DNA of 64,000 nt, taken from Sporomusaceae bacterium. Lineage in GTDB: Bacteria > Bacillota > Negativicutes > UBA1444. Numbering within the stretch: position 1 is the stretch's first letter; the number at the start of each line of letters is the position of its first letter. Position numbers and translations under genes: made by a program. Location: assembly GCA_018434355.1 (NCBI GenBank), contig JAHDPL010000011.1:124001-188000 (forward strand), in the 5' to 3' direction. Of this stretch, positions 7,983-12,538 are shown piece by piece. The notes beneath the pieces were generated by a model. That model did not search any database, was not told where the DNA came from, and was given only the letters and a program-made list of their open reading frames with translations.

Positions 7983-8822
7983 TTGCAAACGACCGATCAG
8001 GATATTTTGTCGCAATATCTATATGTCCTGGCAAAACTTAATGAATTCGTTCCGGCCGATTATGGCGTTACCATTGCCGACCGCGAAAAATATTTGTTGT
8101 ACCAGCCGGCAAAAAGCCTGGATTTAAAAGTTACCGTCGGAGATGCGATTCGTGTCGGCAGCGCAACGCACAGGGCGATTACGGAAAAAAAGCGTTTCTT
8201 CAATAAAATCGATAAATCTGTGCGGGGTATCCCTTACGTTGCCTTGGCCAACCCTCTTTTCAACGACCAAGGGGAAGTAATCGGCAGCATTGTAATCAGC
8301 GAGTCAATCGAGCGTTATGACAGTTTCAAGGAAATGGCAAGTAGCCTTACCGACTCCATTTCTTCCCTGGCTAGCACTAGTGAGCAGATTTCAGCACAGG
8401 CAGAAGAAATCGCCGCACTGACGCAAAGAGTGACTTTATCTTCGCAAGAATCTCAAAAACGAGCCAAAGAGACCGATGAAGTCCTTGGCTTAATTCGAAA
8501 TATTTCTTCACAGACCAATCTGCTGGGCTTAAATGCGGCCATTGAAGCAGCTCGGGTCGGAGAACAAGGGCGCGGCTTTGGTGTAGTCGCCGAAGAAATC
8601 CGCAAGCTTGCCGCCACTAGCGCTGAGTCAATCAAAAAAGTAGAGCAAATCACTAAGTTGATCCAGGAAAGCAGTGACGCGTCTTTTCAGCAGACGACCC
8701 AAATTGAAGGTGGAATTAACCAGATTGCTGAAGCAATGGGGCAAATTGCTGCTTCAATACAGCAAATAAATTCCATGGCCTTAAAGCTTGATCAATTTGC
8801 CGAGCAGCTGATGGCAGGATAG
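7983..8822 (+). CDS. Soluble methyl-accepting chemotaxis protein
   Basis: The protein has 279 residues and a TTG start placed by the strong AAGGGGGG site upstream. There is no transmembrane segment. Residues 1-115 form a globular sensor region of a type common in small Firmicute chemoreceptors. The rest is a coiled-coil signalling domain with a recognisable hairpin tip ([20 protein letters not shown]), where CheA and CheW bind. It would signal from the cytoplasm, perhaps reporting an internal metabolite. It follows the carboxylate carrier by 148 bases, and only a weak terminator lies between, so co-expression with the uptake operon is possible. Its own terminator follows. Confidence 0.9.
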
Positions 8823-8960: not shown

Positions 8961-9392
8961 ATGCGATCAATTCGTATTCTGTTGCTCGGCTCAATGCTGC
9001 TGTTGCTTTTGTGCCTGCCGGTTTCGGCGGCCACGTTCGGTCCTAACACAATCACCATATCGATCGAAGAAGGATTCTGGCAAAAATATCACCTCGCCAA
9101 CCCCGCCTCGGTCAGTGGCGATGTGGAGAAGATTTATAAAGTGAAAAAGGTCGAGGTCCGCCTATTGGCCGGCGAACGGGAGTTCGGTTCGCATACCTTC
9201 ACGCCGGAAGATAGCGCGCCGCGAAAGTTCTCTATGCTGCATGGCGCGGCTGCGGCGCTCAGTATCCGCATCAAGTCTTCGGCGGTCGACGATGTGATCT
9301 GGATCAGTACGCATCCCTATAAATACACCGGCAACGATATCGTGATCAAAGCGGCCCCGACCGGGATCACGCTGAATTACCCCGGCATATAA
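8961..9392 (+). CDS. Small secreted protein of unknown function
   Basis: A clear signal peptide (residues 1-24, basic start, Leu-rich core, VSAAT cleavage region) leads a mature part of about 120 residues. That part has no cysteine and no family motif I recognise. Its alternating hydrophobic and polar pattern suggests a beta-sandwich. The ATG follows GCGAGGGATCTCC, a usable ribosome site. It is flanked by the chemoreceptor's terminator and by the riboswitch leader of the next gene, so it is probably transcribed alone. Export is likely; any role would be a guess. Confidence 0.7.
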   Translation: MRSIRILLLGSMLLLLLCLPVSAATFGPNTITISIEEGFWQKYHLANPASVSGDVEKIYKVKKVEVRLLAGEREFGSHTFTPEDSAPRKFSMLHGAAAALSIRIKSSAVDDVIWISTHPYKYTGNDIVIKAAPTGITLNYPGI

Positions 9393-9474
9393 GCTCGCGT
9401 TTTGTTGAAGGCAAAAAAGATTTCTCCGCCTATTGTTTTTGACGAAAAATATATAGTAGAATGATACTCAGAGA

Positions 9475-9572
9475 AGCAATCGAATATTGGGCAAAACCGT
9501 CGAAAGGCGGCGACGCAAAGCCTTGGGTCTAATGGCGTAGAAACGCCTATGATTGCCAGGTTGCCGGCAGGA
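9475..9572 (+). ncRNA. Cyclic di-GMP-I (GEMM) riboswitch aptamer
   Basis: The conserved parts occur in order: GGGCAAAACC; a five-pair stem capped by a GAAA tetraloop; GACGCAAAGCC; a GGGTCTAA junction; a second hairpin GGCGT-AGAA-ACGCC; and GATTGCCAGGTTGCCGG, which holds the tetraloop-receptor strand. These are the hallmarks of the class I c-di-GMP aptamer. It lies about 65 bases upstream of the FliL-like start, and a terminator hairpin sits between, so control is probably by transcription termination. Confidence 0.92.
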
Positions 9573-9586
9573 ATGGGATGTTGATG

Positions 9587-9618
9587 ATGACCGGCGAAGT
9601 CTGGTCATTTTTATTTTT
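9587..9618 (+). terminator. Riboswitch expression platform (intrinsic terminator)
   Basis: ATGACC / GGTCAT closes a 10-base loop and is followed by TTTTTATTTTT. It stands between the c-di-GMP aptamer and the ribosome site of the FliL-like gene. No alternative anti-terminator pairing is obvious by eye, so whether c-di-GMP turns the gene on or off is not settled. Confidence 0.75.
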
Positions 9619-9635
9619 CGAGGGAGGGAAAGCGG

Positions 9636-10124
9636 ATGGTGAAATATATTGTCGGGCTGGTTTTGGCGGTGGTCATTACAGTCGCCGTCGCGGTGGCGGT
9701 GGCGATACCGGTGGCAAAACAGAATGCCGCTGCGGCGGCTGCTGCGCCGGTGAAACGGGAAGCCGGATACATGTTCAGCCTGACCGATCATGATAAAACC
9801 CAGTACCTGACCACCACGCTGGCTGACGGCAAGGTGGCGCGGCTGCAGCTGATCCTGGAACTGGACCCGGCACTGGCGCCAAAAGACCAGAAAAATCCTG
9901 ACCGCAAGATGCTGGTGCTGCAGGATACGCTGCTGCGCACCCTGCGCGAAATGAAAAGCAGCGACCTGGCAGCCGGTAATCAGGATGCTTTCAAGCAGCG
10001 GATCGCCGACGCGGCGACCAAAGTGCTGGGCAAACGGGCTGTGCTGGGAGTTTACCTGACTGGCGCCACGATGCAGATCGGCAGCTTGCCGGAGGAGACC
10101 GCGCGGTTGCACTTGCGCAGCTGA
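9636..10124 (+). CDS. FliL-like single-pass membrane protein under c-di-GMP control
   Basis: The protein has 162 residues and starts at an ATG behind GGGAGGG. Residues 4-26 form one transmembrane helix, followed by an Ala/Pro linker. The periplasmic domain has the FliL pattern: LQLILELDP, then a helix with VLQDTLLRTLREMKSSDL, then a segment running from residue 129 to KVLGKRAVLGVYLTGATMQIG, matching the core and last strand of FliL. FliL sits at the flagellar basal body and supports the stator motor proteins. Here there are no flagellar neighbours; the gene is monocistronic between a c-di-GMP riboswitch and a terminator. Identity as a FliL-domain protein is likely from the pattern, but whether it serves the flagellum or another motor is unknown. 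Confidence 0.7.
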   Translation: MVKYIVGLVLAVVITVAVAVAVAIPVAKQNAAAAAAAPVKREAGYMFSLTDHDKTQYLTTTLADGKVARLQLILELDPALAPKDQKNPDRKMLVLQDTLLRTLREMKSSDLAAGNQDAFKQRIADAATKVLGKRAVLGVYLTGATMQIGSLPEETARLHLRS

Positions 10125-10157
10125 CAGACAAATCGAGGGGTTGCAAATGAGCTATGA

Positions 10158-10188
10158 GGTCGCCGGCAAACGGCGGCCTTTTTATTTT
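10158..10188 (+). terminator. Rho-independent terminator of the FliL-like gene
   Basis: GGTCGCCG / CGGCGGCC stem (one G-T pair) followed by TTTTTATTTT. Confidence 0.85.
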
Positions 10189-11728: not shown

Positions 11729-11760
11729 AAGAACCCGGCGTTGCTGCCGGGTTCTTATTA
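11729..11760 (+). terminator. Rho-independent terminator
   Basis: AAGAACCCGGC / GCCGGGTTCTT, a perfect 11-pair stem with a six-base loop, followed by ATTATT. It ends the alcohol dehydrogenase and small-protein transcript. Confidence 0.8.
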
Positions 11761-11779
11761 TCAATGGAGGGATCGGTGG

Positions 11780-12538
11780 ATGAAGAAAACAACTTATGGG
11801 ATGCTGGCGGCGTTTTTGCTTGTGATATTGTGGACTTGCCAGCCGGCTTTGGCGGCGCAGAACGAGTGGCGGGATGCGCAATATAATTTTGGCACGCCCA
11901 AGTTTGTTTTGTTGACAGAGACGAAATTCGCCTACGAGGGATATGACACCAGCGGACGAAATAAGTTCAACCGGTTCCCTTATGCGGCGGACAAGATTCC
12001 CGATATGCTGCGGAACAAGCTGCAGGGCTTATCACGGCATCGACTGGTAGACATGGATTATGTCATCAAACAGATCAAAGCCGACCCGGCGGTCACCGAA
12101 CCGGTCGATCCCCTGGCGCCTGGATATTCGGCATTGCTGCAACGGGAACTCGGCAAGCATGTCGATTTGGTGCTCTACTTGGATATCCGTGATTACGGTT
12201 GGTTTTATGAATGGCACGAATCCTATATGAAGACGGAGTCCTACACCGAGCGTATTTCCTACAAACGCAAACATGCCGACGGTACCGTGTCGGAAGGCTG
12301 GACCGACGTGCCGCGCACCCGCGTCGTCTACGTACCGGCGGGTTACTATGTATCCGACTGCGCCGAAGCGGCGTTTCTGCTCTACGATCCGAAGACCGGA
12401 CGCGACGTCTGGAAATACACCGACTCTCGCAACCGCAAATCGCCGCCGATCAGTAACGGCTACGACCCCTCCGGGCCGGAATCGATGATGAGGCGGATAT
12501 TTGACGAGGCGTTCAAAAGAATGCCGCTAGCCCAATAG
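11780..12538 (+). CDS. Secreted protein of unknown function (252 residues)
   Basis: I start at ATG 11780 behind GGAGG; an upstream in-frame ATG lies in the terminator. Residues 1-27 are a signal peptide (MKKTTYGML start, PALAA cleavage region). The mature part is rich in Tyr, Trp and Arg, with a KFVLLTETKFAYEGYDTSG segment near the start and VYVPAGYYVSDCAEAAF later. It has a single mature cysteine and no lipobox, so it is likely a soluble periplasmic protein. I recognise no family. It converges on the ABC-F gene, with only 11 bases between stop codons and no terminator visible in that gap. Confidence 0.7.
   Translation: MKKTTYGMLAAFLLVILWTCQPALAAQNEWRDAQYNFGTPKFVLLTETKFAYEGYDTSGRNKFNRFPYAADKIPDMLRNKLQGLSRHRLVDMDYVIKQIKADPAVTEPVDPLAPGYSALLQRELGKHVDLVLYLDIRDYGWFYEWHESYMKTESYTERISYKRKHADGTVSEGWTDVPRTRVVYVPAGYYVSDCAEAAFLLYDPKTGRDVWKYTDSRNRKSPPISNGYDPSGPESMMRRIFDEAFKRMPLAQ

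Follow-up and report, generated by a model that had tools for sequence, protein, structure and literature searches.

Proteins such as YcgR and other members of the PilZ group relay c-di-GMP to the flagellar motor, and riboswitches place whole flagellar operons under its control. The locus described here, which lies in a 64,000-nucleotide stretch of DNA (the window) from a flagellated Sporomusaceae bacterium (class Negativicutes), raises the question of whether such a riboswitch can also serve one accessory gene of the motor, as an earlier note had proposed for a lone FliL-like gene. We consider it probable that a c-di-GMP-I OFF riboswitch controls, by transcription termination, a monocistronic, lineage-restricted FliL paralog (FliL2) that acts at the MotAB stators. 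The sequence itself shows the aptamer, the terminator, a product of the FliL family and the joint occurrence of switch and gene in two genomes of the genus; a role at the motor is suggested by family, fold and regulation.

Architecture of the locus

The features of the unit are as follows.

9439..9468, + strand: possible sigma-70-type promoter (TTGACG, 18 nt, GATACT), from a consensus scan
9480..9568, + strand: c-di-GMP-I (GEMM-I) riboswitch aptamer (RF01051, 77.1 bits)
9561..9567, + strand: UUGCCGG, aptamer 3' end, proposed 5' strand of the antiterminator, inferred from folding
9586..9618, + strand: intrinsic terminator, a stem-loop (9586–9609) followed by a U-rich tail, hairpin about -11 kcal/mol
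9591..9597, + strand: CCGGCGA, proposed 3' strand of the antiterminator, overlapping the terminator 5' arm, from folding with weak shuffle support
9619..9628, + strand: ribosome-binding-site-like CGAGGGAGGG, read from the sequence
9636..10124, + strand: fliL2, encoding a 162-aa FliL-family paralog with a helix at residues 2–29 followed by a FliL/SPFH-like domain (PF03748, structure model, fold match)
10156..10180, + strand: intrinsic terminator 3' of fliL2, 10 pairs

The earlier note had read a complete GEMM-I aptamer at this position, and the Rfam covariance model bore this out with a full-length match at 9480–9568 on the + strand (model positions 1–87 of 87; 77.1 bits against a gathering cut-off of 35 bits; E 2.1e-13), RF01051 being the sole Rfam family above cut-off across the 64-kb window. 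Family membership predicts c-di-GMP as the ligand. In each of the genome's five aptamers, and likewise in that of a relative from the same genus, the base before GCAAA is G; from known structures, we take this base to be position 20, at which G marks the c-di-GMP type and A the 3',3'-cGAMP type. The possible promoter at 9439–9468 lies where initiation would fall just 5' of the aptamer, although it is weak by count, as sigma-70-like matches were near chance (2 found versus 1.3 expected in shuffles). Downstream, the stem-loop at 9586–9609 is followed by TTTATTTTT, and GAGGGAGGG lies 3' of the terminator, ahead of the ATG at 9636. Terminator-like sites were more frequent than expected (6 found versus 1.5 expected in 1.5 kb, both strands). 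Both terminators named in the earlier note, the one between aptamer and ribosome site and the gene's own, were thus located.

The gene had also been described as standing alone without flagellar neighbors. This holds in that the adjoining genes are non-flagellar, with an iron-containing alcohol dehydrogenase gene 3' of fliL2; however, one of the two genes 5' of the riboswitch encodes an MCP signaling domain (7983–8822) and is motility-related. The other (8961–9392), which separates this MCP-like gene from the riboswitch, encodes a probable exported protein of 143 aa lacking a Pfam match. A 265-aa exported-looking protein, likewise lacking a Pfam match, is encoded further downstream (11741–12538).

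FliL2 is a divergent member of the FliL family

The one-helix FliL-pattern protein of the earlier note was recovered by both profile and fold. The only Pfam match of FliL2 was to FliL (PF03748, 31.5 bits, cut-off 24.6 bits), and the orthologous protein of the relative, scored separately, reached 35.0 bits, so that the assignment rests on more than one marginal match. The NCBIfam FliL equivalog NF005826 matched at 33.7 bits, below the 140 bits needed. An AlphaFold model, built on a two-sequence alignment, placed the N-terminal helix at residues 2–29, ahead of a domain mostly at pLDDT 73–91 (mean pLDDT 72). In a Foldseek search with this model, the five best PDB matches were FliL structures from Campylobacter jejuni and Helicobacter pylori (7sgn), with E-values of 1.2e-4 to 5.7e-4, headed by the motor-embedded FliL of C. 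jejuni (9hmf, E 1.2e-4). Stomatins ranked closely behind, FliL being ahead in both E-value and TM-score. No matches were returned by phmmer for FliL2 against the PDB, so the link to FliL structures came from the fold search alone. Judged by its sequence, FliL2 is a FliL-family protein, though no ordinary FliL.

The genome also encodes a canonical FliL (G000:C50:195302, 58 bits, confirmed as FliL by Pfam), in a cluster that by gene order and sequences looks like the fli operon. Given this intact canonical fliL, fliL2, which lies outside the flagellar operon, is a paralog. The canonical FliL is approximately 51–55% identical to canonical FliLs of other families, whereas FliL2 is only about 26% identical to it and to other FliLs of the class. 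Canonical FliLs scored 50–72 bits in 121 genomes of the class, against which FliL2, at 32 bits, is an outlier, and a tree set the pair of FliL2 proteins apart on a long branch, a placement that shows divergence rather than origin. This distance and low score suggest that the function of FliL2 may have changed.

Two extra weak FliL matches in other genomes were set aside as counterparts: one (G083) is located in a tRNA/rRNA region and appears spurious, and the other (G037) has no riboswitch. A further genome of the class (G061) carries two FliL genes with high scores (63 and 57 bits; C150/L063 and C122/L064), neither with a riboswitch nearby, for which contamination and true duplication are both possible. 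At canonical FliL loci of approximately 28 class genomes, no c-di-GMP-I switch was detected within the stretch examined around each.

Switch and gene are retained together in the genus

In the relative (G001), a c-di-GMP-I aptamer of 80 bits stands directly 5' of fliL2, whose product is 61% identical to FliL2 here, while the neighboring genes differ. Although few genomes bear on this comparison (two of the genus), the switch–gene unit has persisted through changes in its platform sequence and in its surroundings. Outside the genus, FliL2 orthologs went undetected in a sample of 301 class genomes and, at E 1e-13, in a sample of 399 phylum genomes. A single-sequence search of GTDB contigs likewise found no ortholog, and the only match to a two-sequence profile was evidently the relative's own contig (G001:C113). 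As these genome sets are samples, they demonstrate the rarity of FliL2 rather than its uniqueness.

Direction of control

OFF control is the most likely mode: FliL2 would be made at low c-di-GMP and its transcript terminated at high c-di-GMP, a direction favored first by the layout and second by folding energies. At low c-di-GMP, the aptamer 3' end would pair with the 5' arm of the terminator, allowing fliL2 to be transcribed; at high c-di-GMP, the folded aptamer would leave the terminator free to form and transcription would stop. This is the layout of Cd1 of Clostridioides difficile, a proven OFF switch ahead of a flagellar operon (PMC9262584; PMC6366702). The terminator uses no aptamer bases and lies wholly 3' of the aptamer, so the two can coexist, and both are present in the minimum-energy fold. 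The proposed antiterminator is a minimum-energy intermediate: pairing of 9561–9567 with 9591–9597 gives the minimum-energy fold for transcripts ending at 9599–9607, and once the terminator 3' arm is complete, the terminator is favored over the antiterminator by 1.3 kcal/mol. The corresponding pairing also forms in the relative, with a different terminator sequence and expression platform.

Shuffling lent the antiterminator weak support at this locus, where 135 of 2000 shuffled sequences (7%) paired at least as strongly and a stricter shuffle test fell short of significance (p 0.30); in the relative, 3–9% of shuffles were equal or stronger. Pooled over six switches, the pairing reached p 0.036, driven mostly by a switch before a gene for a STAS-domain protein (L017:7371-7926), which has the strongest antiterminator of the six tested (GGUUGC with GCAACC). 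Relative to shuffles, the leader as a whole had an ordinary folding energy (z -0.65), a measure that says little about riboswitches.

These weak pairing statistics leave some room for an ON switch, in which c-di-GMP would block termination and sessile or surface-attached cells would produce FliL2, for instance to keep stators in place under the high load met on surfaces. FliL is most important under high load and in swarming (PMC9195833), and class I ON switches such as Bc2 are known (PMC6366702). However, the ON switch pilM builds its terminator from the 3' strand of the aptamer itself (PMC9262584), an arrangement at odds with the self-contained terminator of fliL2, and no alternative antiterminator requiring the folded aptamer was seen, which makes ON control improbable. 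That the riboswitch is a functionless relic, or that fliL2 is decaying, we regard as very unlikely: only 11 of 16 c-di-GMP riboswitches in C. difficile are functional (PMC6366702), but the fliL2 aptamer spans the full model at 77 bits, and the relative has retained an aptamer together with an uninterrupted, 61%-identical gene despite its different platform and neighbors.

Four further c-di-GMP-I switches, located before MCP, GGDEF, HD-GYP and STAS genes, indicate that c-di-GMP riboswitch control is in use in this genome. The switch-controlled MCP carries Cache and HAMP domains, the PAS-HD protein has an intact HD-GYP motif (HHEHYDGNGYP) and the GGDEF cyclase an intact GGDEF. As the switches at L016:7545-8851 and L015:10464-11760 (contigs C1 and C42) stand directly before the GGDEF cyclase and HD-GYP phosphodiesterase genes, c-di-GMP would control its own synthesis and breakdown; such self-regulation has been described as rare for c-di-GMP-I switches (PMC6366702).

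Proposed role of FliL2

As a single-helix membrane protein, FliL2 would place its extracytoplasmic domain in the rings around MotAB, joining or replacing canonical FliL there, and so would aid the motor while the cell is motile and be withdrawn as it turns sessile. The genome encodes one MotA–MotB pair and two ExbB/ExbD sets; a second stator set that might be dedicated to FliL2 was sought and not found, the remaining MotA/ExbB matches having ExbD-like genes after them. With a single MotAB set, FliL2 most likely acts on the same stators as canonical FliL. More speculatively, and with less than even likelihood, FliL2 might be an exchangeable ring subunit, c-di-GMP shifting the ring from FliL to FliL2 and altering torque or stator dwell time while the flagellum is not rebuilt.

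FliL2 might instead be FliL-like in fold and non-flagellar, a stomatin/SPFH-type protein acting perhaps on the MotAB-related ExbBD complexes, with c-di-GMP control serving the envelope or adhesion. The strong divergence from canonical FliL, the closeness of stomatins in the fold search, the two ExbB/ExbD sets and the separation of fliL2 from flagellar genes all fit this reading. We nevertheless find it unlikely, given the lead of FliL over stomatin in the fold search, the absence of any Pfam match other than FliL and the typical association of c-di-GMP-I switches with motility genes (PMC6366702). Moreover, a stray paralog can serve motility: Vibrio fischeri fliL2 is monocistronic, lies outside the flagellar locus and is needed for full motility (PMC3948606). 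We therefore retain a role at the MotAB stators as the preferred reading.

Comparison with known systems

The role of FliL has long been termed enigmatic (PMC9195833). If the proposed role is true, placing a single stator-associated accessory gene under a riboswitch would add a separate, slower, RNA-level control of motor output and would offer a clean genetic handle on FliL function. The fliL2 switch is of a known kind with a new target, and its parts are known ones in an unusual combination; no paper naming a c-di-GMP riboswitch and fliL jointly in its title or abstract was found in a search that covered subscription journals thinly.

With the canonical FliLs of H. pylori (7SGN) and C. jejuni (9HMF), and with 6AHQ, FliL2 shares a single N-terminal helix and a FliL/SPFH-like domain, but it stands alone under a riboswitch, is only about 26% identical to FliLs of its class and has a very short cytoplasmic tail (approximately 3 residues, where the genome's canonical FliL has about 17 more). 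Like fliL2 of V. fischeri (VF_2446), it is a stray monocistronic paralog beside an intact canonical fliL; the V. fischeri gene, however, is under the flagellar activator FlrA, with no riboswitch reported, and is conserved across many Vibrio species, whereas the gene described here is under a riboswitch and was found in one genus only. The closest regulatory likeness is to the Cd1 switch (Cdi-1-3) of the C. difficile flgB operon, which has in common a GEMM-I aptamer, a self-contained downstream terminator, a flagellar target and an antiterminator, here a proposed one, formed from the aptamer 3' strand and the terminator 5' side. OFF control is proven for Cd1 and inferred for the fliL2 switch, and while Cd1 governs a 23-kb early flagellar operon, the target here is a single stray fliL paralog.
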